The translations under genes were made by a program, and so were the position numbers. A DNA stretch of 64,000 nt from Chrysogorgia sp. JL179-B06 (lineage: Eukaryota > Cnidaria > Anthozoa > Scleralcyonacea > Chrysogorgiidae): positions 305,001-369,000 of the forward strand of contig JAYKKM010000310.1 of assembly GCA_035772405.1 (NCBI GenBank), read 5' to 3'. Shown one piece after another: positions 3,967 through 62,923 of this stretch (position 1 is the first letter of the stretch; the number at the start of each line of letters is the position of its first letter). The notes under the pieces are model-generated. The model ran no database searches. It saw nothing but the letters and a program-made list of their open reading frames with translations, and was not told where the DNA came from.

Positions 3967-4416
3967 GATTGTTAATAATCCGGTCGTACCACTGTTCGGT
4001 TGGCTTTTTACTGTCAGAACGAATTATAAAGGGACACACGACATGCAAGTAAAAAAATGAGCTGCCACTACGGCTAAAACAGACTAATTTTTGCTTTTCA
4101 ATTTTCTTTCCAAACTATTACTCCGTAACCGTTTGCCGTTATAATTTAACATATAAATCAGGATCATACAACAAATGTTATATCTGGGACTTTACAGATA
4201 TTTGACTGATTTTATTGTATGGCATACAGTTTATTTTATTTTGTCATTTCATTTAAGATGATGCATGCTTATTTTTACAGCTTCCATATTCAATATGGAC
4301 CAATACTGATGTGTTTTCAGATGCTATTTTCGAGAAATGCGCGACACCATCATGTGATTGTGAAGGAAAATTGTTTGACTGTCCATTATGCATCTCACAC
4401 AGAATCAAACCTTTAA

Positions 4417-4954
4417 GGTAGCAAGATCCCTCTGAATACATTTTTAATACCATACAATATAACAATTAACCCTTACAACCATTTGATAGAACATATGACA
4501 AATAATATTTCCACACAAAAAGTTTGCATAAATTATGCTAATTAGCTGACGAAATGCCGCCGATTGGTCAAAATCGCGATATACTTCAAACAAATTTGCC
4601 ATTTTCCAAACATTTTTGAATCTGATTCATACTTGTTGAATTATCTGACATAATTAATATAATTTAGGTGGTGGAAATTGAAAAAAAAAATAAAAGCATC
4701 TCAGAAAATAGCTGAAAGATTATATAAGCCATAAACTCAGAAACTTTCAGGACCTTATCTCTAAAACTGCCTGAGAAATCTTGTTTGAAGTATATCCCGA
4801 TTTTGACCAATCGGCGGCCATTTAGTCAGCTAATCAGCATAATTTATGCAATTTGTGTGGAAATATTATTTGTCATATGTTCTATCAAATGGTTGTAAGG
4901 GTTAATTGTTATATTGTATGGTATTAAAAATGTATTCAGAGGGATCTTGCTACC
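4417..4954. mobile_element. TTAA-flanked foldback element, 538 bp
   Basis: Inverted arms of about 176 bp (4417-4592 and 4779-4954) start GGTAGCAAGATC and are nearly identical. Each end abuts TTAA (4413-4416 and 4955-4958), the target used by piggyBac and Kolobok transposases. There is no internal ORF, so it is non-autonomous. Which superfamily mobilised it cannot be decided from the ends alone. Confidence 0.7.
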
Positions 4955-5113
4955 TTAAAACTGAGCAAGATCAAAATGCATTGGAATCCAATAATTCCAT
5001 GTCAAGGTACGTAATTACACTTAATATCGCATGTAATGCGAATCGATCGTTGTTTACCATATTCACAAGGAAGTAATAATACTAATTAGTTGTATCCTTT
5101 CTATACATCTCAG

Positions 5114-22298: not shown

Positions 22299-22708
22299 AG
22301 TCAGTTCGCTACACACAGTAAGTCAGTTCGCTACAACTCATCATTTATTAAAAAACAATCAACTTGATTTTGTTTAATATGTATTTACTAAACAGATCAC
22401 CTCAAATAATGACAGTGCAACAGCGTTATAAATCTTAGATGGAATCTAAGCGATGACTCAGATGCATGCCGTCCATCGCCAATGCGCGCTGCCATTAATG
22501 CTCTCAGTCTTTTGCCAAGCTAATTTTAACGCGGTTTTGTTGAAATAGCTGCTATACAACAATAAGTAATAATACATAATATATATTAATAATAAGTCTG
22601 ACTCACAGATGCCGTCCATCGGAATCGCCAACCCGCTTTCGGTGATATATATTCCGCTTTCCGTTTATGTGTGTGGCGAACTGACTTTATGTGTGTGGCG
22701 AACTGACT
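22299..22708. mobile_element. TIR element abutting the composite transposon
   Basis: AGTCAGTTCGCTACACACA, followed by a second copy of its first half, starts at 22299. Its inverted equivalent, two copies of TGTGTGGCGAACTGACT, ends at 22708. There are no ORFs. A clean target duplication was not found. It ends three bases before the composite unit. Confidence 0.55.
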
Positions 22709-22710
22709 CT

Positions 22711-22904
22711 ACAATCAAGTGCAAAAATAATGAGACAACCTACATTTTCTACCATTATTAACATTTTTGGCCCCCTCCCCCCATATACAATGTTGAAAAT
22801 ATTATTTTTCGCCAACTATTTCACTTTGCAGTGTGTTTCCAACATTGTAAATGGGGGAGGGGTGAAATAGCCCGAATGTCTCAATAATTTTTGCAACTGA
22901 TTGT
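22711..22904. repeat. Left 194-bp terminal repeat (foldback MITE)
   Basis: It starts ACAATCAAGTGCAAAAATAA and ends TTTTTGCAACTGATTGT, which are inverted versions of each other with small gaps. Deeper in, CCCCTCCCCCCATATACAAT pairs with ATTGTAAATGGGGGAGGGG, so most of the repeat can fold on itself. It is identical to 26808-27001. Confidence 0.9.
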
Positions 22905-22966
22905 CTGTATATGTATTTGAAAAAAAAATTGAATATTTGATTCATCTTATGATCGCTTTACAGGCG

Positions 22967-22997
<31 letters not shown>

Positions 22998-23246
22998 GTG
23001 ACTATCTATACTTTTATTTTCTAACCTATTTTGATGTCACTATGACATAATCATGTTATAAGTTGCATATTATATTCATTTAATTAGCCATGATCCATAC
23101 ATTTGAAACCAAAATCTAATAAAATGAAAATAATTTTTCATCACCTCACACTTGAGTTGAAACCTTCACAAATAATCATTGCGTGCGTAACTAAGGAAAT
23201 TTGATACAACAACAGAAAAGCCCATACGTTATATATACAAGAAAGA

Positions 23247-24347
23247 ATGATGAAGTCAAATGAATATGTGCCGATGAAAACCTCTATTTACATGAGGTAC
23301 TTGTATCAAGAAAAGGGTGTTAGAGGTGGAAAGCTTTTAGAAGCATTCCCAAAGTACAGTAAAGCCACCATTTACCGTCACGCCAAATTGCCAATTGACG
23401 AAATTGATTCATTCGACAAACGGAAGCAGAACAAAGGACGTCCCAGACAGTTAACTGTTCGCGATGAACGCAACCTTGTGAGACAGTTGCGGATATGTCG
23501 AGCAACGATCGGGTCGTTCTCCGCATCGAGACTTCGAACGGCAGCTGGAATCAGTCCCGACGTCTCTCTGTGGACCGTTCGAAGAGCACTTAAAAGGAAC
23601 GGTTATTCCTATTTACAGTCCCGTAAGAAAGGACTTTTGACACGGAAGGACTTAACGCGCCGATATCGTTTTGCCTGTAAGATAAGAAGGTTGCTACCGA
23701 AGAACTTCTGGGAGAGTGGTATCAGCTTCTATCTTGACGGAACTTCCTTTGTTCACAAAACGAACCCATTTGATCAGGCACGAGCTCCAAAATCCATGGC
23801 GTGGAGGAAGCGGGGTGAAGGCCTGGCCCTGAATTGCACAAGCAAAGGGAAAAAAGCTGGTGTGGAGGGTAAAACGGTACATTTTGTTGTCTCTATCGCT
23901 TATGGCAAAGGGGTGATATCTTGCGACCAATACTTCGAACGTTTAACAGGAGAACGTTTTGCCCAGTACGTGCGCCATAATTTTCCCAGAATATTTGCAA
24001 TCAGTGCAAATCCCAAAGCTAAGCGTTTTCTTCAAGATGGCGACCCGGCCCAAAACAGTGCACTCGCAAGACACGCTTTTCAAGAAGTTGGAGCTTTCAG
24101 GTTCAGCATACCACCTCGCAGTCCGGACTTAAACCCCATTGAAAATTTATTCAACTTGGTATCGACGCAACTGGAGAAGGATGCTCTTGATATGCAGATA
24201 ACCTCCGAAAATTTTTGCCAATATTCTGAGAGAGTTAAAATGACGATGATGGACTTTCCTAAAAATACTATTGACAATATCATTAAATCTATGGACAAGC
24301 GTCTTGCAATGATAGTCAAGAAACGGGGAGAAAGATTGAAGTATTAA
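23247..24347 (+). CDS. Tc1-like DD34E transposase
   Basis: This is an intact 366-residue ORF. Residues 1-150 form the DNA-binding part: helix-turn-helix-like segments (LLEAFPKYSKATIYRHA at about 31-47; SLWTVRRALKRNGY at 107-120) around an AT-hook-like GRPR at 64-67. The RNase-H-fold catalytic part carries Asp164 (FYLDGTSF), Asp264 (FLQDGDPAQNS) and Glu299 (PDLNPIENLF); exactly 34 residues separate the second Asp and the Glu. The spacing of about 100 residues between the first two and the SPDLNPIE box are those of Tc1/IS630 enzymes, which cut and paste at TA. At 366 residues it is slightly longer than a typical Tc1 (about 340). ATG 23247 is preceded by AT-rich sequence; a second ATG follows directly. 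It converges on the Rep gene across the palindrome. Confidence 0.92.
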   Translation: MMKSNEYVPMKTSIYMRYLYQEKGVRGGKLLEAFPKYSKATIYRHAKLPIDEIDSFDKRKQNKGRPRQLTVRDERNLVRQLRICRATIGSFSASRLRTAAGISPDVSLWTVRRALKRNGYSYLQSRKKGLLTRKDLTRRYRFACKIRRLLPKNFWESGISFYLDGTSFVHKTNPFDQARAPKSMAWRKRGEGLALNCTSKGKKAGVEGKTVHFVVSIAYGKGVISCDQYFERLTGERFAQYVRHNFPRIFAISANPKAKRFLQDGDPAQNSALARHAFQEVGAFRFSIPPRSPDLNPIENLFNLVSTQLEKDALDMQITSENFCQYSERVKMTMMDFPKNTIDNIIKSMDKRLAMIVKKRGERLKY

Positions 24348-24640
24348 ATAATTTCATTGATGAATCTTTCCTCACAAATATATAGCTTTGCAAACATTCA
24401 TCAATACGCATTTGTAGAACATTTATAAGCTAGCTCACTTTATAATAACAGTTGTTCCAAAAACACTTAATAACAGTTGTTTGTTTTTTCTTGTTTTTTT
24501 CTTTCAACATAATTGTTTTTCGATAATAAATATAAGTTATGTCACAAAACCTAACGTGTACGCTCCTCTGTCCTTCCCAATAAACTGACAAAACCCAATT
24601 AAATAAAGACATATATTATATAACTCAGTTTGCACACGTC
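24348..24640. other. 3' flank of the transposase
   Basis: AT-rich. AATAAA-like strings near 24530 and 24600 may serve as polyadenylation signals. No ORF. Confidence 0.3.
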
Positions 24641-24891
24641 ACACACACGTTACACACACGTTACACCACATGTTACACCACACGTTACATAATTTTATAT
24701 AGTAAAATGTATAGACAGATGACACGTTACACACGTTACACCCAATATCCTTAAAAGGAAGAGTATACTCTTCCTTTAAAGGATATTGGGTGTAACGTGT
24801 GTAACGTGTCATCTGTCTATACATTTTACTATATAAAATTATGTAACGTGTGGTGTAACGTGTGTGTAACGTGTGTGTAACGTGACATGTA
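24641..24891. promoter_or_regulatory. Loopless palindrome with GTAACGTG iterons; candidate Rep origin
   Basis: The sequence is centred at 24765/24766 in GAGTATACTC with no spacer. Arms match almost perfectly for roughly 95 bp each (about 24670-24861) and then lose register. Each arm bears about six copies of (T)GTAACGTG or its complement CACGTTACA: pairs next to the inner stem (24723-24739 and 24790-24807) and a cluster further out. Iterated motifs beside a hairpin are the usual layout of rolling-circle and parvovirus-type Rep origins. The canonical CRESS nonamer (TAGTATTAC type) is not present; AGTATACT at the centre is only loosely similar. Origin function is inference. Confidence 0.6.
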
Positions 24892-24936
24892 TGTGGCTGC
24901 TCAATAAAGTGCCTGTTCAATAACGATCGTGATAAG

Positions 24937-26279
24937 TTAGAAGTGTTCATCTAATAACACAAGCTCCGCAAAACAGCGTGGGCATGGAGAAACATCTTTT
25001 TGCTGCGCTTGAGGAATCTTTCGGTTTAGCTCGAATACCCTCCACCTAACAGACATCATCTCGGTTTCTCGTTCGTCGATCTGTCCGTTTCTGCCGTAAT
25101 AGACGATTGGCGCGCTTGATGTGGCAAAAATTGGGATGTCATTGTCGATACATATATCGCGGGAATGTAGGTTTTTGGGGGCAGGCAAGTGTACAACGTG
25201 CCCCTCGAGAAGCAAAAGAAGATCTTTCCACGAAATGAGAGCAGAACTCCAACGAAAGTCGTTTAAGTAGATCACCTCACTCTCCTCTGATCCGACCCAG
25301 GCATATTTGTCAACAGCCGGATTCACGAACGTTTTGTACAACGCACACAGAGGATCAAAAAGGAACGTTTTTTCCACTACAAGCGCAGCCAACTAGTAGC
25401 AGATTCCTAAACTTTCCCCTTCCTTTCGTTAACAGATCTTTCATTGCCGAGCCAAACACCACAGGATGTATATTATTATTTTGCAATACCTCGCGTGCAC
25501 ACTCTATCCATTTCCCGTTGCATCCCTTAACACATTCGCCACTTCGAGCTTCATGAAGCAACTCTACTCGTGACTTTGTCTTCCTATCGACCTTGTCTTG
25601 CGCATTTTTCATGCGCCAAGTGGTATCGATGAGCTCTTGGATGACTTTCGTAGATCGACACAAAATGAAATGTGCTAAATCTTTTTTCCCTTCTGTCTTC
25701 TGTGTTTCAGCGAGGGCCAGTAGCTCATTGTAATCGTTAATTTGGTTGGAAACAAGATATTCGGACACTTCCAAATTGCTCAGACGTCGGATCTTTACGG
25801 GTTTTTCCGTAAATGAATTCATCTCTATAAGCGCGGACACACCGTTTGGTCCTTGGGGAACCGATTTCCCTAAGGTTGGGGTGGGCGGGACTCAAATACA
25901 CCTCTGTATCCTGCTTTGTTACATATTTATAGGCGGAGTAATAATTGTCGTGTCCGTTGGAAAAATGAAGTACCACGCCATGACTTTTCATCATCTTCTT
26001 CTTGACACCGTTCCAGCGTTTTGGCCCATTTAATTTCAAGGAGAGATGATAGTGCTCACCGGATGTACGTTCGTGTGCGTCTCTACAACACGCCCAGTGC
26101 TCAACATAAACTTTGGCACGTCCCTCATTGAAGTAGGCCACAACTTGCTCCCCGAAACTCTGCCTTGTCGGAAATTTTGTAAGGTCTGCCTGGCTGTACG
26201 TTACAAGGTAGGTCCTTCGTACCTGGCTAGCTGATAGTGGACGTTGGACCTGAAAATCGTCGCCATTAGGCTGTTCCAT
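24937..26279 (-). pseudogene. CRESS-type Rep: HUH endonuclease plus SF3 helicase, frameshifted
   Basis: ATG is at 26279. Segment 1 (to about 25815) holds the HUH nuclease: motif I-like YLVTYSQ at about residues 24-30, motif II HYHLSL (HYH at 76-78), and motif III YVTK with Tyr at 119. Segment 2 (open 25840-25355) continues with RRLSNLEVSEYLVSNQ and a helical linker up to the P-loop. Segment 3 (25392-24937) has Walker B-type VIYLNDF and motif C-type IPIFATSS, then a Cys-bearing tail (CPRCF). A first frame change falls near 25800-25850; a second falls in an A-run at about 25378-25384 inside the P-loop. Rep proteins nick origins and unwind DNA for rolling-circle replication. Homologues occur as single-stranded DNA virus Reps and as genome-resident copies in animals; this copy as it stands cannot make one full protein. 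Confidence 0.85.
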
Positions 26280-26807
26280 TTTATGTGAATAGAATACAAA
26301 TAAAATTAACAGCAAATATAAGTGCGTAGCTAATTTGTGAAGTTAATTTGAATATGCACAAAAGTAATTAAGTTGCTTGACATTGTTATTGAAATTTGCT
26401 TGAATGATCCGACGAAAATACGGGGTGATATTCAAACAAATGTAAAGTTTTCGTCTTACCCCAAATTAAAGTTTAGCCTGCTCCTCATTAATTATAAATA
26501 GCTTTAAAGCATCTATAAAGTTCGAATTTATCGACTTTATTCCCACAATGTTTTCATATTTTGTCGACCAGAAGTAAAGTTTATAGTAAACACAAACGAA
26601 TTTAACGATATTCGAAAAAGCCAGCCGACTCGTCCCAGTCCTCAACGCGCCATTTGGGCGAGATATCAGCCGACTAAAATGTGCAGATTTGCAGCAATGC
26701 GCCAATGTAGGTACTTACATCTGTCAAACGACCGGTATTCAGCTAGGCGTAATATTTTGGCTTGCATTCAAATTTCGGACCCTGAACCCCTACAGGTCAG
26801 AACTCAG
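26280..26807. promoter_or_regulatory. 5' region of the Rep gene
   Basis: AT-rich leader between the Rep start and the right terminal repeat. No clear TATA or initiator can be assigned and no second ORF is supported. Confidence 0.3.
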
Positions 26808-27001
26808 ACAATCAAGTGCAAAAATAATGAGACAACCTACATTTTCTACCATTATTAACATTTTTGGCCCCCTCCCCCCATATACAATGTTGAAAATATT
26901 ATTTTTCGCCAACTATTTCACTTTGCAGTGTGTTTCCAACATTGTAAATGGGGGAGGGGTGAAATAGCCCGAATGTCTCAATAATTTTTGCAACTGATTG
27001 T
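26808..27001. repeat. Right 194-bp terminal repeat
   Basis: Identical at all 194 positions to 22711-22904 and in the same orientation. The bases before it are CAG and the base after it completes TA. The inner edges of both repeats extend the inverted symmetry by TCTG (left) and CAGA (right). Confidence 0.9.
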
Positions 27002-27002
27002 A

Positions 27003-28861: not shown

Positions 28862-29935
28862 ATTAAGACAATAGATACGATCGTGGCTGACCCGCAGAAC
28901 GCAACAGGTGGTGCTTGAGGGAGAAAGCAGTGAGAAATCAGTCGTAAAGTTTGGAGTCCCCCAGAGGACAGTATTGGCCCCACTGTGCTTCCTAGTGTAC
29001 ATTAATGATATGGAAAATGACATCTCGAGTAATCTGAAGCTGTTTGCGGATGACACATTAATGTATGGGCTAGTGCATAGTGTTTATGATGCCATCAGCC
29101 TTCAACAAGATCTGGATAGACTGGTTGATTGGGCAAGCTGCTGGCAAATGGATTTCCATCCCTCAAAGTGTTCTACGAATTTACCCAACAATATATCCAT
29201 ATTCTATGCAGGGCAGACTTTGAAAGCCGTAGATCACCAGCTATACCTCGGGATAACGTTGGAAGAGACCCTCAATTCGAAAACTCACATTCTGAACGTA
29301 AATAACAAAGCCAATAAGACACTAGGATTTGTTAAACGTAATCTCCAAGTGCCCGGAGGGGATTAAAGCACAGGCGTATAAGTCCCTGGTAAGACCCATC
29401 CTGGAATATTCCAGCACTGTATGGGTGGAGCAAGTCCAACGACGTGTTGTGCGGTTCGCCACTAATACGTATTCAAGAGAGGAAGGATGTGTTACACATG
29501 CCTTGGAACATCTGGGATGGCCGACCTTGGAGGAGACGAGTTGCTAGACTCACGCTGATGTATAAAACACTTCATAATCATGCAGCTATGGTTATCCCAC
29601 AGTACATTCAACACCAATCATACACCAAGACTAGATTCTCCCATCCAATGAAATTCATTCCCATCCAATGAAATTCATTCCCATCCAAACACCCTGTGAC
29701 ACGTACAAATTCAGCTATTGGCCGAGAACTATCACTGACTGGAACAACTTAACACCTGAACTGCTGGCAAGTAGTACCATAAACAGCTTTAATATAGCTG
29801 TCAGTGATTATATTTATAAATCACTGTTGCTCTTGGCAAGCCCATTCTATATTATTTATATAAATTGTTTATTTCATATTGATTTAAAGCTTGTTTATAT
29901 GTCAGCCACGATTATACAAGCTATACGAATGTAGA
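28862..29935 (+). pseudogene. LINE reverse transcriptase remnant (C-terminal half)
   Basis: The plus strand reads IRSWLTRRTQQVVLEGESSE, then GVPQRTVLAPLCFLVYINDM, then LKLFADDTLMYG with the catalytic FADD box, followed by LGITLEETLNSKTHI and VRPILEYSSTVW, and ends in a WNNLTPELL block near 29745. There are two or more frame changes, one of them at a 20-bp tandem duplication (29641-29686). It is 5' truncated in the palm and style is CR1/L2-like. Confidence 0.8.
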
Positions 29936-37200: not shown

Positions 37201-37210
37201 GGCGGCCGTT

Positions 37211-38458
37211 ACCACCAAAAATACTAAGATAAAATTATTCAACCTAAAGACAACTGATTTAACGTCCTTAGTTAAATGATTGATACCAAATAGAAATGAT
37301 TCAAACAAAGAGAAGTGATTTAACGATGCACAGCTAAATGATTTAATAAAATGTGAACACCCTAGCTAACTTCGCGTTGACCATGGTTTGAAATTTTTTG
37401 TCAGCATGAAGTAACCCAATTCCGCTTTTACGATTACTCGCACCTCACTTTCCGAATAACGATTAGCTTCTAGCTTATTTCTCAATTAAATTAAAAATAT
37501 AAACGAAAATAATTCAGTATTTCGTCACTAAATTCTTGGCAGTTTACCACCTTTTCACTTTGCTATATATTTAAAAAACTGTCTATGGAACATTCTACTT
37601 TTTAAAAATATAAACGCTTTCCACTAAAATTAAAAATATATAAAAGTGCTCCATTGCTGTCTTCGGGCTCCGGCACTGATGACAGATGTCTACAAGGTGC
37701 AATAAACTTGGATAAGTTATTAAATGCGGTAAAATAATAACTAATAAGTTTCCGTTAAGTTTTATAGACTTTACCATTTCAAACATCCATTTATATGACA
37801 GTAAGAGTTAATGCATGAAACAAGCTAATTACATAACATTGCATTACATATTTTTAGCATATTTTCCGACCCACGACACGTACTCAAACTATAAGAGTAC
37901 CCGATACAAATGTAGAGCAACGATAAAACATTAAAACATTCGATTAGTATGATCATCTCGAGCGTGAAACTTGACTTACCGATTGTATGAATCCGAATAC
38001 CGTAGAATTTATAATGGAGCACTTTTATATATTTTTAATTTTAGTGGAAAGCGTTTATATTTTTAAAAAGTAGAATGTTCCATAGACAGTTTTTTAAATA
38101 TATAGCAAAGTGAAAAGGTGGTAAACTGCCAAGAATTTAGTGACGAAATACTGAATTATTTTCGTTTATATTTTTAATTTAATTGAGAAATAAGCTAGAA
38201 GCTAATCGTTATTCGGAAAGTGAGGTGCGAGTAATCGTAAAAGCGGAATTGGGTTACTTCATGCTGACAAAAAATTTCAAACCATGGTCAACGCGAAGTT
38301 AGCTAGGGTGTTCACATTTTATTAAATCATTTAGCTGTGCATCGTTAAATCATTTCTCTTTGTATTGAATCATTTCTATTTGGTATCAATCATTTAACTA
38401 AGGACGTTAAATCAGTTGTCTTTAGGTTGAATAATTTTATCTTAGTATTTTTGGTGGT
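37211..38458. repeat. Large inverted duplication with 445-bp arms
   Basis: 37211-37655 and 38013-38458 are near-identical inverted arms around a 357-bp spacer. A 69-bp sequence beginning TATGATC and ending ATAATG occurs at 37948-38016 and again directly after the right arm at 38458-38526, with two mismatches, so the right arm is flanked by direct copies of spacer sequence. No ORF in the arms is convincing. It could be a foldback transposon or a replication template switch. Confidence 0.85.
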
Positions 38459-38529
38459 ATGATCGTCTCGAGCGTGAAACTTGACTTACCGATTGTATGA
38501 ATCCGAATACTGTAGAATTTATAATGTGA

Positions 38530-44784: not shown

Positions 44785-45283
44785 TTATGATTGAAGTACC
44801 ATGGTAACTTTGGAAAGAGATGCACAACAATTCCACTTTTCCACCATGTAACATTCCTTTATGATTCGTTTGAGCTTTTCAGATGATGGCAGGATGTAGA
44901 TTTGAATCTTTTTCACCATATACCCAAATGAATAAATGTCACTGTAGATTGATTGTCTATTACTTCCACCAATAACCTCTGGTGCAATATTTTTATATTT
45001 AGTTCTGTAGTCATCTTGTTCCTTCTTTGATAATTTTTTAATTTTTCCAGCATTCCTCTTGCAGCTTTTTCCAAAGTCAATAAGGACAGGGTAGTAACTG
45101 TCATTGGTCTTGTATAGCACTACATTGTCTGTTTTTATGTCATTGTGTAAATAACCAGACATGTGTACATGGTGAATTCCTTCTACAACACTAGCGAGAA
45201 CTGATTGCCATTGTTCTTCACTCAATGTGACACAAATATTTATCAAAAGGGAATGTAACGTGACTGACTTATCTTCTATTCCA
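44785..45283 (-). CDS. Protein kinase C-lobe exon
   Basis: The minus strand reads from a CAG acceptor at about 45283: FYGIEDKSVTLHSLL, then SVVEGIHHVHMSGYLHNDIK. LHNDIKTDN is the catalytic loop (HND in place of HRD, Asp and Asn kept), LIDFGKSC the DFG magnesium site, and IAPEVIGG the APE box, followed by the SDIYSFGY helix-F motif with its conserved Asp. Only the C-lobe is present; the Gly-rich loop and Lys of the N-lobe were not found upstream in this window. It is likely the last exon of the split gene to 50.1 kb, or a truncated copy. An active kinase would phosphorylate Ser/Thr proteins; activity is unproven. Confidence 0.75.
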
Positions 45284-48200
45284 TAGAACTGCATGACAAG
45301 TATTTATCCAATATTTGTTGCTTTTCCTTGCGTTCTGCTTGCCAATCTCTGTAGTAGTTGTTGGCGACTCTCTCTGCTAATTTTCGTTTTCTTTTTTCTG
45401 TTGTATTTAACATACATGCTACCTGTATTTCTTGCTGCATCTCTGCAACTTGTTGTTGCAGCGGAATTACTGATTCCCTCACTCCACAGTAAACACTTTT
45501 CCTCGCTTTTCATTTCCGCTTTCTTGTTACCTTTACAAATGCCTGGTGTACTGATTTACCAAGTTCATTGTCAGTTATGTTCCCAAACTGAGTAATAAGT
45601 GCATCCCTGACATCACTGCTAAGCACACAGTCCCCATGGTGGACATCATGACAATGACATGTGTTAAATTACTTTTAAATTATTTTCTGTCAGGCGGTTC
45701 CATTGTTTTATAAACATTCTAGTTTTGTTGTAGTTTAATTGTTACATAAAGGACCTGGACGTAAATCAGAGCAGGGTTCTTTTTGATTATGTGGTCATAT
45801 TAGTTATAATTAAAGTGTTCATTCTACAAAAGCAAGGGGCCACACCCATTTTCAGTTTGTTGTTGGACCAACAGCAAGCACCCTTTCCCTCGAGAAAATA
45901 AGAACCTATTTAAGAACCTAAATAGCCTAAAATCCCAGTAAATATCACCTTTTTAGGCTAACTTGAAAAATGGTGGTTCTTATACGCAAGTTTTTACTGT
46001 ATGTGTATTTAGTAATCTGTAATAATTTACTATAATTATTATACATCAAACTCACCAATTACATAATCTACATCCTGTATCTACAAACTAAAGGGTTTGG
46101 CTATTTTTGAGTTTTTGAACGCATTACTGGTTTTCCCAGTCAGGGAACTTTCAGCAAGCTCATCTAGCTTGAAGACCATCCTTAGTAACGTGTTTGTGAA
46201 GTCTGTCACACTTCCCCTCTTTGAATTTAAAATTTTCTTTTGTCCCTCTCGAATTTATTTTCCTTCCCATAATGTTATCTATATGTACAGAGCAAAATAA
46301 ACAAATATGAAAATTTAAGTTTTCAGAATACAACTTCAAAATAGACTTCACATGAGGAACACCTCATAGACCAAACAGACCTCAGTCAGAACAAAAATTC
46401 TAAACACTTTTAGTAGAAAGGGTTAGAGCATCTGCAATTTTTGGGTACACGTAATATTATTTTAAGTTATATAATTGCTCAAAACTTGACAAACTTTTCA
46501 GCAAGGTAGAGTCACCTTAAAATAACAGGAATCTCATACAGTACACCTAGGCTTTAGCCAGAAGTGTTTCCCCTATTTATTCCGGAATAATATAAAACAA
46601 CAATTGTCATCATGTTCAAATTATCTTCTCAGCAAGTTATAATGCACTGTCCTTAGTTTTTTGGTGGGTTACAATAGTCGATGTTTTCAAGTTAAAGACA
46701 TCATGAAAAGTGACATTACAAAAAGCTAAACAAGACACATAATTCTTACCATTCTCAATTCTGGTGTTCTATTTTCCAAACTTGTCAATGGTGACCTTGT
46801 TGGTTGGAGGAGTCTTGTAGGTGTTGGAGCTGTATGGAGCAGGTACCTGGCTTGATGTTGGACTTTCTGCTCTTGTGTCAAGAAGTCTAAGGGGGGTGCT
46901 TGGTGGCATGTTATAATTTCCTGGACATGGAGATGAGCATCTTTCATCCACTTTCTTGTTGAACTTCTCCAGCTTCCCATCGAGTCCATTCACAACATTG
47001 AGTATATCAGATATACCTTCATTTACAGATGGTATGGACATTAGTATAAACATTTTAAAGTACAGTAAATCTTTGGTCATCAAGTTATACAATAGACTAT
47101 TTCAAGGCTATTGATGCAATATTGAAATAAGGGAAAAGAGTCTGGGGTGAACACAGTCAATATATTTTAATATGAAAATGCCAAAATTAATGAGAAGTGG
47201 GTAAACTGTTTTGCTTGTTTTAATTGAAAATGGGCTTGTGTCATTTCACAATTTCTGCAAGACTTCAAGAGAACATAGAAAAAGCTTTGCATGTTGTTTT
47301 TATAAGCCTTCTCTAATCATCTTGTTTAATAGTACAACCTATCAGTATCATTCATTATACTGGCTTGTAAATTGCTTCTTGTCACCCTTTGTCCAGTATA
47401 AATAAACAAAGACTTACATGCAAATTGGTACAACACATACAAAACTTTTTCCATGTTTTATTAAAACAAGCATACATTGTAAAACATCTACCGATTTCTC
47501 AGCAATCTTGACATTTCCACATGAAAATATATAGGTGTAGCATTCGCCCTCATTTGACCATGTTTGCCCTGGGCATTAATAACCGTGAAATTGTCTGTTA
47601 ATAATTATTAAGCTTACTCTTTTGGTCTTGAAGCATCTGCTGCAGCCTTTTATTTTTGGATTTTAAAAGGAATCGAATCTGCTTCTGCAGATTTTCCCTA
47701 TCCTGTTGCAAAAACAAAATTTAAAAGTTATAATATTAGGTTTTTACATCTTCTCGAAGATCAATGACTAAACAAAAGAAATACACTGTCTTTAATGGCA
47801 TATACTAGAAAGCTTTTGTCATTGTAACAAGTCCATTTTACAATAACTAGAAATCTTGATAATTTAAAACATAGTGGAAAAACATTAGTATCAACACAAA
47901 AACACTTAACGAAAAAAGCAATAAAAACAAGCTCTATCAATGCTGTAGATTTGCAAAAATAAAGCATGGATATCCTAAGAAGAATGGCAAATATCATAAA
48001 TAGGACAAATAAAATTAAAATATGGCAGATCAAATTTTACCTCATAATCATCACTATCTGTGTCCTCAGTTTCATCTCCCCTCTTACACCCTGTAATCAA
48101 AGGTAGGATATTTGTGAGCTTTCAAATCAATTTACAATAACTTTATCTTTACAAAATCTTTCACATGCAAAGCCATTGACATTACATGCATTTCTATGCA

Positions 48201-52972: not shown

Positions 52973-53355
52973 GGTCTCTTCCTTAAATTAACCATTATCC
53001 TTAAGTTACAAATCGCTCTGAATTAAGGATAATGGTTAATATAATGGTATTGTAGGGTTAGAACCCAACCCCACCACAACATCAATCCCTAACCCTAATC
53101 CCCCACCACGAGTTTTCTAATCCTAGCCTAGCGAGTTTTCTAAGCCTAACCCCTGTCTAGCAAGTTTTACGACACAACCATACCTACCCTGCACCCTTGT
53201 CTCCCATACTTGGTGTCTGTATAGACTAATAAGAGAAACTTAGTAATTGACTGCTAAACGCATGCGTGATTCTTATGATCCATTAGATTAACCATTATCC
53301 TTAATTCACAGCAATTTGTAACTTAAGGATAATAGGTTAATTTAAGGGAGAGACC
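52973..53355. mobile_element. TIR element built of hairpins, copy 1
   Basis: It begins GGTCTCTTCCTTAAATTAAC and ends with the near-complement finishing GGGAGAGACC. Each terminus itself holds a hairpin of TTAACCATTATCCTTAA with its complement (52988-53039 and 53289-53341). The interior contains degenerate CCCTAACC strings. No ORF. Confidence 0.65.
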
Positions 53356-53697
53356 ATGTTGCATTTAGTTAGGGTTGGGGTTAGGATTTGGGTTAGGATT
53401 GTGGTTATTTAACCCTAATACTAACCCTCATACTAACCCCAATCTTTACCCTAACTAAAAAGATAGTCCAGAAAACGACTATATATTCTTAACCTGCAAC
53501 CTGCGTTTTATACCAGCCCTGCAAACGAGCTATTTTCTTTTGTTATGGCCGCACGAATTAGGGGTAAAAGCGGACAAACATGGATATTGACGTCATTTCG
53601 ACGGCTGCTATTCAAGTAAAAGAACGAAAATAAAACTTAAACGTTTCAAACAGTAAGCGGGCGAGGGGTTGTTGCGTATACGTATTTCTAGTTTATA
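53356..53697. other. Degenerate telomere-like repeats
   Basis: GGTTAGGGTTGGGGTTAGGAT (shortened here to its pattern GGTTAGG) and, after a turn, TAACCCTAATACTAACCC at 53375-53455 form an inverted pair of irregular TTAGGG-like runs. The rest shows nothing. Confidence 0.5.
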
Positions 53698-54817
53698 TCC
53701 TTCCTTAAATTAACCATTATCCTTAATTCTCAAATCGCTCTAAATTAAGGATAATGGTTAATTTAGAGGCGATCGTGAGATTCGCGCATGCGTATATTAG
53801 TCAATTACTATCCCACATGCTTGCCCAACCTCGTACCCAGGGTCTTCTCAGTGCTTGGGGAGGAGCGCCCGGGATGGGAGGGGAGTGGAGCGAGGGAAGA
53901 GAAGACCCGGGTAAAGGCTGGTCACGTGACTCCAAGGATATTGGATTATTTTGTAACCTGGGTTATTCTCGCTTATATCATCCGGGGGGCCGGATCCCTG
54001 TGAAAACATATCACAAACTTCTATAATTGAAAGTATAAACAGTATATGGATAATTTAAAAAGATTACAATTTATTGGAAAGACAGTACGGACTGCAGACA
54101 ATTTGAAAGCCTTGAAAGATGGTGGATTACTTCGAAAAATACGTTGATTTACTGGACATTTGTGCATGCTGTCATAAGATATTAACATGATTAGTATTTA
54201 AAATAATAGTCATAGTCTGACTGTATTAAAATTGTAAATTCGAACTGTTCTGGCGTTGATCATAGGACTTTAAGATATACGACGGCAACCTAGGACGGCG
54301 ACGGCAGTAAAAGCAATACAAATTTTAGCATTTGAATGAAACCACGGTCGATTGACTAGCGTATTTGACACTCCAAGCTTGTTTTATGATCTCCAAAACG
54401 CTTCAATATTTCTAAAACGATTATAGTGTCTGTGTTTAAGTCAGTCTTAAGTCACATCTCTCCGCGAATTATCGTCGTCCTAAAGACGTGAAAAAGCTCT
54501 CAGTGGCGTTGTAAACAGAACGAGAACGGCGTTGAAATTACTCCTGGGAATAAAAATTATTCATTCTTATTGTTTCGCATGAAGATTCTTTTGTTTGCGA
54601 CGTCCCCTTCCCGGGCACTGAGAAGACCCTGGGTACGAGGTTGATGCTTGCCAAGTAGGAGTGGATCAGTGGACGGCTGGGGGTTTGGGATGGGGAAAAT
54701 TTTGCCGGGTGTTTAGGGTTAGAAAACCCCTGGTTGGGTTCTAACATTAGATTAACATTATCCTTAATTCAGAGCGATTTGTAAATTAAGGATAATAGTT
54801 AATTTAAGAAAGAGACC
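53698..54817. mobile_element. TIR element built of hairpins, copy 2, with nested element
   Basis: The same terminal hairpins recur at 53710-53762 and 54751-54802; the right end closes with AAGAAAGAGACC. Inside, a perfect 29-bp inverted repeat (beginning CAACCTCGTACCCAGGGTCT at 53826, complement ending 54643) bounds an 818-bp nested element without a transposase. Confidence 0.65.
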
Positions 54818-57364: not shown

Positions 57365-57503
57365 TTCATTTTGTGAACCATGTGATCTTTAGGACTCAAA
57401 TTTGAAAATTAATTACACTGTGTACACAGCCAAAAAGCCCAACAACATGTGTTCTTAGTTTGTTCTTAGTAAAATAATATAGTTATACAGTCAGGAAACA
57501 GAA

Positions 57504-59645
57504 ATGGGGAAACCAAAATCTCCCAGAACTCGTATGAGAGAATACAGATTGAGAGTTAAGCAGAATAAAGATAAAGATGAAGCAAATCTTGAGAAAGACA
57601 AGTACAGAAAACAAGCTGCAAGATCAAAAGAACAGCAAAGTAGGATTAAGGCTGAGGTGAAGACACACAGAGATAAGCTGAACAGGGAAAGAGTGTCAAA
57701 GTTTCGTGCAAAAAAGAAACTAAACTTTGAAGAGAAACAACCATCAGTTTATGCCTCAAAAAGGTCTCTGGGAAAAGCAGTTAGTCGAGCCTCAAGATCC
57801 CTGCCTTTAAGTCCTAGAAAGAAGAAAGTGGTTGTCAGTAAGCTGGCAGAAAGAGTAGGACTTATCAGGTCAACAATAAAATCCAAAAATGTGATAAGTA
57901 ATGAAGTGAGAGCAAAAGTTGAAGCATTTTATTCCCGTGACGACATATCAAGGCAAGCCCCTGGAAAGAAAGATTATATAACCATATGGAAGGAAGCTGG
58001 TAAAATCAAGCTTCAGAAAAGGCATCTGTTAGTCACCATCAAAGAAACCCACTCATTATTTATGGTCGATTACCCAGATGTTAATATAGGGAAGTCAAAA
58101 TTTGCACAGCTGAAGCCAGCAAATGTTCTTCACCGGTCCGAAACTCCAAAAGATGCATGTCTGTGCATGTACCATGAGAACATTATTCTCTTCTGTGATG
58201 CGCTGTACAAGGCTATTCCCAGTTTCCCTGCATACTCCAGCAGTTTTGTATCCAACATGGTTTGTTCACAAGATTCAGAGAGATGCATGATGGGCAATTG
58301 TGATGAATGTTCCAGTCACAAAGCTGAATCCTGGCTTTATAGCTTGGTGGAGCCAGATATAAATGGCAAATAAATTTGTTGGTGTGAGTGGGTAAGAGAA
58401 GAGCAAAATGGGATGGTCCATGGTAGAATAAATGCAAACTAGGTGGCTGATGATGGCAAGATTTCATCCAAGAAAATGATGAAGAAAAGTTGTAGAGCTG
58501 GATCTGTTGTTGAAGCAATTGAAAGTTTGATTGAGAAGATGCCTACATTCCTTGGTCATGTTTTTATCAAGAGAGAACAAAGTAACTACTTTCAAACCAA
58601 ACTTTTAAGCATTCCCAGGGACAGTGCAGTCATTCAGATAGATTTTAGTGAAAACTATTCTCTACAGCAGCAAGGAGAGATCCAATCAGCATATTGGAGC
58701 CAGAAGCAGTTGACACTTTTCACGGTTTGTGTATGGATGCACCAAAGCAAAAAAAGCATTGTATTTGTCAGTGATGACCTGGATCACGATAAGACCTCAG
58801 TTTTAGTGTTCATCCATAAATTGGTCGAATTGACTGCCAAGGAAGTCATTAAGAAAGTTAATATATTTTCAGGTGGGCCATCCTCACAATTCAAGAATCA
58901 GTATGTGTTCAATTTCCTTCCAGTGTTGCTTGAACTGCACCACCTTGACTCATTTAACTGGAACTTTTTTGCTACATCTCATGGCAAAGGAGCAGTTGAT
59001 GGGATAGGTGGTACAGTGAAAAGAAATGTCTGGATGGAAACCTTGAGCAGGAATGTGGTTGTCGACACATTGGATGATTTTTGCACAGTGGCACATCTGC
59101 ACATCCAAGTCATCCCAGTACAAGCTGAAGACATCAAAGCATGTGGAAGAAAGATGGATCTTGAAAAATGTTTTGCTTCCTCAACACCAATCCATGGCAT
59201 TAAGAAAATGCACTTTGTTACAGTTCTGGAGGATGGCACAATTCGTTGCAAGGAATACACCGTCAAACAAGACCAAGAAAATGATGGTGTCCCTCAGGAA
59301 CTGTCTGAAATCGAGGATGGTGATAATTCTGATTGACGATCGCTGTAAGAAACTTGTTTCCCCAACTGCAACAGTTCCAGTTATGTTTATGCAGAATATT
59401 TTGTTATATGCAGGTATAAAGAAGAGTTATTCCCAGGGCAGGTGACAGTTGTCCATCCTGAAGGAAAAGGTGCCAGAATCAAGGTTTTTGAGAAGTGTGC
59501 TGGTGGATGGAGATGGCCGGAGCAAGCAGATGAAATTGATTATGTGCAAGAAGACATATTAGAAAAGATCAAGTTTCCACAGCCTATTAACAACCGTGGC
59601 ACATACAGGATTGTGGAGTTGGAGAAAATATGGGGAATTAATTGA
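57504..59645 (+). pseudogene. Transposase-like gene of the 3.4-kb element, broken
   Basis: Residues 1-100 (from ATG 57504) are basic with YR.R.K.NKDK-type repeats (MREYRLRVKQNKDKDEANLE), probably DNA binding. A middle part has CLCMYHENI and C..C pairs (CSQDSERCMMGNCDEC). After two in-frame stops (TAA 58371, TAG 58440) the same frame resumes: AVIQIDFSENYSLQQQGEIQ (candidate first Asp), NIFSGGPSSQFKNQY, then FFATSHGKGAVDGIGGTVKR (candidate third acid). I recall relatives with Asp in the SGGPSSQFKN box, so a catalytic residue may be lost. The main frame ends at 59336; a chromo/SH3-like tail (FPGQVTVVHPEGKGARIKVF and GGWRWPEQADEIDY) lies at 59415-59645 in another frame after an AG acceptor. No named family is claimed. 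Confidence 0.6.
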
Positions 59646-60680: not shown

Positions 60681-62795
60681 AAATTCGTCGCAAAACATTA
60701 CAACACTATAAATAAATCTACAAACATACTAACACATACATGGTTATGGTTGCGACAGGGGAAAAAACAGGATAATTCCCAATTGACATTTACCCCTTTA
60801 ACATTAGTAAATATAAAAATCTCGATATAAAGGACGCTACAAGACACGTACACTCATACATATAATACATCAATATTAAGGAGGTTCATAGGATGTTAAA
60901 TTTTCCTTGTAGTTTTTTGTCATTTGATTTCTAAATTGACTTAGTAAATGTATACGTTTTAAGCTAGATGGTAATTTATTCCATAGTTCAATGGATCTTG
61001 GAAAACATGATTTCCGATAGTAGTTTTGATTGTGAATTGATAGTGAACGGTAGTTGGTAATGTCAAACGCACGCGTAGTTATTCTTCGGATCTCGACAGG
61101 TGTAAGAAATTTACTGAAGTCAACATCAAGTTGGCCAATTCTATACTTGAACAAGAGAATCAGATCACTGATCTCTCTTCTAAATTCCAGGGGAAGCATA
61201 TCAAGTGTTTCCAATCTACTCTTGTAAGTGATATCATGGCTCGGGTAATTCAAGATAAATTTAGTTGCACGCCTCTGAACATTTTCAATGAGGTGGCGAT
61301 GTTTGACTGTATAAGGAGACCAGATATTTGAGGCGTATTCAAGTATGGGTCTTACTAATGAAATGTACAGCAACTTACGTATCCTTGTGTCAATGATGTC
61401 ACGTCCACAGACGCGCTTAACCAAGCCGAGGATTTTATTTGCTTTCGCACACATTTTCTCAATGTGCAACTCCCAAGACAAATTATTTGATACCGTTATT
61501 CCAAGATCTGTGATGTCTGTAACACACACCAACTGATGATCTTCCAGCTGATAATTGTAAGCGGAATTAGATGGTGACCGCTTCCTTGACATTCGAAGAA
61601 TTTTACATTTTGAAGAATTAAATGGCATGTTATGATCTTTGCTCCATTTATTTAAGCAGTGAAGATCAGCTTGTAGTTCGTGTCGAGAATTGATAGACGT
61701 AATAGGCCGGTAAAGCTTTGAGTCATCTGCGAATAATGCAAGGTTTGACTTACTAGTTAAGTAGTTTGGCATATCATTAACATAGATCACAAATAACAGA
61801 GGCCCCAGGATGGATCCTTGAGGTACCCCTGATGTCACTGGTAGCCAATCGCTGAAAGCACCATCCAGCACTACACGTTGCGACCTGTCGCTAAGATAAC
61901 TGTGGAACCATTCTAAAAGTTGACCATCAATTCCATAGCATTTTAGTTTATCGAGCAACAAGCGATGGGGAACCCGATCAAACGCTTTAGATAAATCCAA
62001 GTGGATGACATCGACTTCTTGACCACCAGCTAGAGTGTCCAAAATACTATGGTAAACCAACAAAAGTTGTGTTACCGTTGATCTGCCTTTTATGAATCCA
62101 TGTTGAAAGTTATAGATGTTAGGAGAAAGCACGGGAAGACAATGATTGAACACACATCGTTCCAAGATTTTTGATACAATACATAATAGAGATATAGGGC
62201 GATAGTTCTTGGCCAAATATTGTTCATCCCCCTTAAATACAGGAGAAATGTTGGCTCTTTTCCATATCATGGGTACATGGCCCAGAGATAGCGACATATT
62301 AAATACTCGACAAAGTGATGGAGCAATTGCTTCGGCGGTGTTTTTTAAAAGTATTCCTGGAATATTGTCAGGGCCACTCGACTTTGTTGGATTTATATTG
62401 TTTAGTTCACTAATAACTTCAGAAACCGTGATCTCAACATTAGAAAGTATATTATACGAATCTAAGGCAGAGTTGTCATTGGAAAAGTTGTCCCATACAT
62501 CCGTCTCAGCAGAACTAAACACTGAGTGAAAAAACTTATTCAATAAATCTGCTTTCGCTGTGTAATCAGTAACAAAATCGTTCCCGTCACGAAGAAAATT
62601 AGGCATTACATTGACTCTTGTTTTAGATTTTACAAAAGACCAAAAGCGTTTCGGGTTTTCTGCCAAAGATTCATCAATTTTAAGTGCATAATCAGTTCTC
62701 TTTTGCATAATAAGCTGTTTGACAGAACATCTCAGATCTTTAAATTTCTGCCAACAAGAATTACTGTGATCCGAATGGTTAGCTGTGTGCAAGCT
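60680..62795 (-). mobile_element. CR1/Jockey-like LINE, 5' truncated, 638-codon open ORF
   Basis: The ORF runs 62792-60876. In order: a linker (ENPKRFWSFVKSKTR), fingers (SSGPDNIPGILLKN; NYRPISLLCIVSKILE), palm (VDVIHLDLSKAFDRVPH; SGVPQGSILGPLLFVIYVND; LALFADDSKLYR with the catalytic Asp pair), thumb (DLGITVSNNLSW; LVRPILEYASNIWSP; NVQRRATKFI) and the terminal SIELWNKLPSSLKR block. No stops or frameshifts are seen. The AP-endonuclease domain and ORF1 are missing because the 5' end is cut near 62795, as usual for incomplete reverse transcription. 60680-60875 is the 3' UTR. It could make an RT protein but could not retrotranspose by itself. Confidence 0.9.
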
Positions 62796-62923
62796 ACCAT
62801 TTCAGTATAACAGAAATGCTCCTGCTTTCCCTTTGGATTATACTTTATCACAGCAGAATGATACTGCTGTAACTCATGAAGAATGGTATAGTTGGTCACA
62901 CAGCTAGCCATTCTGGATCACAA
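62763..62923. repeat. Foldback repeat overlapping the LINE 5' end
   Basis: GTGATCCGAATGGTTAGCTG at 62766 pairs with CAGCTAGCCATTCTGGATCA at 62901. The left arm encodes the first codons of the LINE ORF, so the LINE is truncated at, or was inserted into, this foldback. Confidence 0.55.

Follow-up and report, generated by a model that had tools for sequence, protein, structure and literature searches.

Can a cut-and-paste transposase and a rolling-circle Rep be lasting partners in a single mobile element? This question is raised by a locus in Chrysogorgia sp. JL179-B06 (assembly GCA_035772405.1, contig JAYKKM010000310.1), from which we analyzed a window of 64,000 nucleotides (nt) spanning positions 305,001–369,000 of the forward strand. 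Within this window, a unit of 4,289 bp (22712–27000) has the order long terminal direct repeat (LTDR), transposase, palindrome, Rep, LTDR. Because relatives of the two genes seem to occur together on DNA elsewhere as well, we judge the unit to be very probably a genuine two-enzyme element of Tc1 type and not an accident. Our preferred explanation, to which we assign a probability of roughly 0.55, is that the unit is a composite-like DNA transposon from a lineage that keeps a Tc1/IS630-type transposase and an HUH/SF3 Rep as standing partners.

The two LTDRs (left, 22712–22903; right, 26809–27000; both on the + strand) are each 192 bp in length, or 194 bp if the flanking A and T are counted, and are in direct orientation without a single mismatch. 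The absence of differences over 194 bp, which places an upper bound of 1.5% on their divergence, fits recent formation or gene conversion. TA is located at the outer edges of the unit only (22710–22711 and 27001–27002), as a candidate target-site duplication, while the inner edges of the LTDRs read TCTG and CAGA. With TA at a frequency of 0.082 in the window, chance would place it at both outer edges with a probability of 0.007. An interpretation of this DNA made from its letters alone, hereafter the sequence-only reading, had described a single unit with identical terminal repeats and with TA confined to the outer edges, and this description is borne out, with the orientation of the repeats now specified as direct. 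Each LTDR copy has imperfect inverted ends of ~27 bp (86%) along with an inner inverted pair, and as DNA it folds far better than its shuffled counterparts (z –6.4). A single LTDR looks like a small miniature inverted-repeat transposable element (MITE). No third copy was found within the 64-kb window. The long repeats were rejected as terminal inverted repeats (TIRs), being direct, and were also rejected as two separate MITE insertions, as the inner edges lack TA. Two independent MITE insertions would leave TA on either side of each copy, and a single insertion of the whole unit is therefore simpler. The GC content is 44% in the transposase and 45% in Rep, as compared to 36% in the flanks. The unit adjoins another MITE-like element (22299–22708), which has an inverted pair (37 nt, 89%) with right-hand arms composed of a repeated 22-nt unit and which stops two bases short of the left TA.

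The transposase gene (23247–24347, + strand) is intact and encodes a protein of 366 amino acids of the DD34E Tc1/IS630 type. In an alignment of 37 sequences, D264 and E299 never vary and D164 hardly does, and the 34-residue spacing of D264 and E299 is that of a DD34E triad. The transposase has 1,423 relatives at E ≤0.001, the best among the 120 listed having 81% identity over the whole length. All 37 family members match DDE_3 and HTH_Tnp_Tc3_2 (E 0.001). The window transposase itself scores 28.8 bits for DDE_3 (cut-off 28.6) and 28.9 bits for the Tc3-type helix-turn-helix (HTH), the latter under the cut-off of 31.5. The NCBIfam IS630 model was matched with an E of 7e-13, at a score below the model cut-off, and a sequence search of the PDB returned Sleeping Beauty (E 0.011). 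Viral contigs searched with the transposase sequence yielded nothing useful, and with the transposase alignment they yielded a single match of 45 residues (42%). Bacterial and archaeal contigs had 60 loci matching the alignment, the longest match covering residues 64–366 at 26% identity, and plasmid records had one short IS630 match.

The Rep gene is on the minus strand and convergent with the transposase gene. Its coding sequence is spread over three frames, by which an intact Rep is rejected: an N-terminal HUH piece with HYH and YVTK in the first frame (25737–26315), a middle piece in the second (25355–25840), and a C-terminal piece with Walker B and motif C in the third (24937–25392). These four motifs are readable, and the position of Walker A coincides with a frame change. 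Searched separately, the three pieces align in order to one natural relative, P0172, at residues 16–175, 186–335, and 335–478 (70, 71, and 83% identity, respectively), together accounting for residues 16–478 except 176–185. Relatives of Rep exist as single open reading frames (ORFs) of ~450–480 amino acids, and an alignment of 30 full-length sequences shows HYH, YxxK, Walker A, Walker B, and motif C. Among these 30, Pfam matches at E 0.01 were to REP_ORF2-G2P (17 sequences), Parvo_NS1 (13), and PPV_E1_C (6). No CRESS Rep model was matched among them at this threshold, and there was one weak PF00910 match (E 0.052). The helicase part matched Parvo_NS1 and PPV_E1_C and no Pif1 model. From its motifs, Rep is predicted to be of the rolling-circle type. 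The sequence-only reading had an intact DD34E transposase facing a CRESS-type Rep. The triad (D164, D264, and E299) and the facing arrangement hold. The Rep motifs HYH, YxxK, Walker B, and motif C hold as well and fit a CRESS-type Rep, but the Pfam models matched by the relatives are of the G2P/Parvo_NS1 type.

Four Rep relatives among the matches listed come from named organisms, namely Paramuricea clavata (two), Montipora foliosa, and Desmophyllum pertusum, all of which are anthozoans. Taken with the reverse transcriptase ORFs of the window, these relatives would by themselves point to an anthozoan or other animal as the likely host. Neither phage records nor plasmid records contained a match to Rep. 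A PDB sequence search with the N-terminal piece returned nothing, a PDB search with a Rep profile returned Rep 40 and others at E 0.55–0.87 only, and a PHROGs search returned nothing usable.

Located between the two genes is a near-perfect palindrome of 250 nt (24635–24884), whose hairpin has a z of –26.8. It is the sole palindrome with 40-bp arms in the window, within the limits of the script used. The 9-mer TGTAACGTG occurs inside the palindrome six times on the + strand, at spacings of 9, 42, 12, 11, and 11 bp, and five times on the – strand; elsewhere in the 64 kb it occurs twice. As the arms of the palindrome mirror one another, the independent occurrences number about six. Rep origins often look like direct repeats plus a hairpin, and the palindrome is a candidate origin for the Rep of the window. 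Alternatively, it could be a fold-back insertion or a minisatellite. A CRESS origin is a stem-loop with a conserved nonanucleotide. The CRESS-type nonanucleotide motif, NANTATTAC, has two matches on the minus strand, at 26757 and at 25946, the latter within Rep. Rfam gave nothing at gathering scores.

Evidence for a partnership comes from the relatives of the two genes, in the form of a strong excess of equal contig sizes. Protein matches lack genomic context, and linkage was taken as exactly equal sizes of the longest contig for each protein match, with the best 120 of 1,423 transposase relatives compared to the best 120 of 541 Rep relatives. Among the matches listed, 15 contig sizes were exactly equal: six above 5.5 kb (28473, 31680, 18058, 16238, 15997, and 6928 bp), eight at 3–5.5 kb, and one below 3 kb. 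The numbers expected by chance in these three classes, as the mean per offset over offsets of 1–100 bp, are 0.02, 0.92, and 0.89, respectively, and a jitter control gave 0.02, 0.84, and 0.87. A common source label was found for 14 of the 15 pairs. The remaining one, a contig of 2193 bp, was rejected as a linked pair, as its sources differ and 0.9 such coincidences are expected by chance. Among the eight pairs at 3–5.5 kb, chance probably accounts for one or two. The contig of 4414 bp is doubtful, as its transposase shares 86% identity with that of the 31680-bp contig while the Reps are 42% identical. In two cases, linked contigs are close in both genes, namely 4357 and 18058 (79% for the transposase and 65% for Rep) and 4513 and 28473 (66 and 62%). 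The 47 further Reps from a separate search had no coincidence in contig size with the listed transposases. These exact coincidences between the two lists of relatives suggest that the pairing recurs elsewhere, as the sequence-only reading had anticipated it might.

Linkage was also mapped onto a tree built from 94 Reps of more than 420 amino acids and the N-terminal piece from the window. In the clade containing the window Rep (support 0.94), 12 of 48 are linked versus 2 of 46 outside it (Fisher p 0.007, with the cut picked after the tree was seen). A second Rep clade outside that of the window (e.g., P0252, P0213, P0231, P0276, and P0193) has many members on contigs of 3.5–4.1 kb. It is hardly linked to the transposase family of the window (the 2 of 46, both possibly due to chance), and may have a different partner or none. 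For the transposases, a tree was built from 113 sequences of more than 330 amino acids together with that of the window, and the first linked members join at a 35-tip clade (support 0.95).

Several observations weigh against a standing partnership. None of the 23 transposase relatives in the 24-tip clade of the window (support 0.47) is linked, although power is low near the window because few full-length Reps close to the window Rep are among the matches listed. Transposase and Rep distances are uncorrelated over the 14 linked pairs (r 0.03, p 0.42), and over the six long contigs (r –0.16, p 0.73) and the eight short ones (r –0.04, p 0.50) taken separately. A second distance measure gave the same result for 15 pairs (r 0.004, p 0.47), for 14 pairs (r –0.01, p 0.49), and when the window was added to these 14 (r –0.11, p 0.69). 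With the first measure, removal of 4414 and 4593 post hoc raised the correlation (r 0.36, p 0.007) but not by Spearman (0.19, p 0.11), and is given no weight. The absence of a correlation in distance leaves partner exchange or a star-like radiation as possibilities. Furthermore, linkage is drawn from contig sizes and not from gene positions, such that gene order and LTDRs are known from the window alone. No second element was read as DNA, and the viral, bacterial, phage, and plasmid collections had no close relative. The Rep of the window is nearly complete but broken as assembled, either by mutation or by assembly error. Lastly, the use of the LTDR ends by the transposase and of the palindrome by Rep is putative.

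For a composite-like transposon with two partner enzymes, the following mechanism may be proposed. The transposase would most likely recognize the outward ends of both LTDRs and move the whole unit into TA sites. Rep would act within the intergenic palindrome, at its repeated 9-mers, and copy circles that consist of one LTDR plus the interior. From such a one-LTDR circle the transposase could mobilize the LTDR only. A head-to-tail copy would be needed, which Rep would supply, and head-to-tail copies would restore an LTDR-interior-LTDR arrangement that the transposase could insert. The same arrangement would also arise without Rep if LTDRs recombined with each other or if a circle recombined into a solo LTDR. 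The copy in the window would need a Rep from elsewhere for the circle-copying step, because its own is broken as assembled. We know of no cut-and-paste transposon with a replication step of its own. It is a tentative proposal, with the odds slightly against it, that the unit belongs to an undescribed class of animal element that combines two chemistries in a single cycle: integration and excision at TA would fall to a DDE transposase, and an HUH/SF3 Rep acting at an intergenic palindrome with repeated 9-mers would amplify a circular form, giving a cut-and-paste element a replicative phase that makes LTDRs.

Of the other explanations, the one that survives best, though we consider it unlikely, is that a single-stranded DNA (ssDNA) virus or capsidless episome gained a Tc1 transposase for integration, with the window holding the integrated form and the contigs of 3.5–5 kb being free circles. 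Contigs of this size, which are one element long, carry 31 of the 120 listed transposases and 37 of the 120 listed Reps, or roughly one quarter for each gene, and the matches of the helicase part of Rep to Parvo_NS1 and PPV_E1_C are also in keeping with a viral source. However, element-sized contigs also arise by repeat collapse during assembly, and other relatives of the two genes are on contigs of hundreds of kb. In addition, the viral collection had no relative of Rep, as scanned with the N- and C-terminal pieces and two Rep alignments (the middle piece unscanned), and the largest further ORF in the unit is 103 amino acids, leaving no ORF of capsid size. The suggestion in the sequence-only reading of an ssDNA replicon that acquired a Tc1 enzyme has lost ground on these last two counts. 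No support was found for a virus family named after transposases.

Somewhat less probable is that the LTDRs are unrelated MITE copies, and that the two genes are an older element that lost its own ends and became framed through recombination or because a circle inserted into a solo repeat. Each LTDR is MITE-like when taken alone, and its tie to the window transposase is putative. The authors describing KolobokP elements offer recombination of a circle into a solo LTDR for similar ends (Kojima and Bao 2022, PMC9587614). Still, the restriction of TA to the outside and the identity of the two copies fit one unit, and no other convincing inverted pair surrounds the genes. No exact inverted repeat of at least 11 bp was found around the transposase alone or Rep alone, which is a weak test because the imperfect ends of the unit itself give only 10 exact bases. 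One inverted pair of 23 nt and 78% (22345–22367 and 24504–24526), among the 25 of 30 inverted pairs displayed, flanks the transposase alone and is at the level of the other chance pairs listed. The chance trapping of a viral Rep fragment in one Tc1 element, at the locus of the window only, would account for the broken Rep and for transposase and Rep trees that lack clear agreement, but is disfavored as highly improbable by the six equal contig sizes above 5.5 kb, where 0.02 are expected, and by the nearly full length of Rep.

The window has other features apart from the unit. A young fold-back-like element (37210–38459) has a 357-nt center enclosed by perfect inverted repeats, 351 and 95 nt in length, and positions 37947 and 38457 carry a direct repeat of 70 nt (97%). 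Two regions are MITE-like: an inverted repeat at 4412–4959 with 108-nt arms that are 100% complementary and separated by 332 nt, and a 66-nt repeat present four times, with inverted pairs, at 52978–54806. Retroelement pieces are evident as reverse transcriptase ORFs at 60876–62801 and 28875–29366 (RVT_1, E 1e-33 and 6e-10, respectively). A fragment of a protein kinase domain occurs at 44785–45303 (E 2e-16), and adjacent ORFs of 296 and 297 amino acids (stop to stop) at 57483–59336 have no Pfam match at E 0.001.

The unit is like Tc1/mariner elements in having a DD34E triad, a Tc3-type HTH, DDE_3, and TA at its edges. The usual Tc1/mariner element is shorter, with one gene between simple TIRs, whereas the unit has two genes in 4.29 kb, framed by direct repeats of 192 bp that each contain inverted ends. 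Helitrons and other HUH transposons have an HUH nuclease, which in the Helitron Rep is fused to a Pif1-type helicase; to our knowledge, they have neither a DDE transposase as a partner nor a TA duplication. The unit and Helitrons thus both have an HUH nuclease in a eukaryotic mobile element, but the helicase of the unit is of another type and its edges are TA. A search of the literature by titles and abstract openings (few subscription papers, with Repbase outside its scope) found, among the matches listed, neither a Tc1-type transposase together with an HUH/SF3 Rep nor LTDRs in a Tc1 element. If a lineage combining a Tc1-type transposase and a rolling-circle-type Rep is real, the exchange of parts between transposons and ssDNA replicons becomes directly testable.

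There is precedent for an element that holds both a Rep and a transposase. The geminivirus-like transposon of Tuber melanosporum combines a Rep-like ORF with transposase ORFs inside a repetitive element bounded by TIRs (Liu et al. 2011, PMC3198968). As compared by description only, the truffle element differs from the unit in being fungal and in having a geminivirus-like Rep, 37-bp TIRs, and no obvious target duplication, with no direct terminal repeats described for it (PMC3198968). The same source reports parvovirus-like repeats of lower animals, namely PIVE, DENSOV_HM, and an acorn worm element (PMC3198968). By description only, these share Parvo_NS1 or PPV_E1_C helicase matches with the relatives of the window Rep; unlike the unit, they have no transposase described there (PMC3198968).

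The closest likeness in architecture is to KolobokP (Kojima and Bao 2022, PMC9587614). KolobokP elements occur in marine animals, with autonomous oyster families of 4.0–4.7 kb, and have LTDRs with their own short TIRs flanking an interior that codes for a DDE transposase plus a nuclease (PMC9587614). The unit likewise has an LTDR-interior-LTDR order with inverted ends within each LTDR. Its enzymes differ, as KolobokP has a Kolobok transposase and a His-Me finger homing endonuclease in place of a Tc1/IS630-type transposase and an HUH/SF3 Rep, and its LTDRs are 192 bp as compared to ~450 or 660 bp (PMC9587614). The models put forward for KolobokP involve a circle or unequal-crossover stage, with LTDR recombination or recombination of a circle into a solo LTDR (PMC9587614). 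If our reading is true, the unit is the second case after KolobokP of LTDRs that have their own inverted ends, here combined with other enzymes, and this recurrence hints at a circle or concatemer stage as the origin of the architecture.

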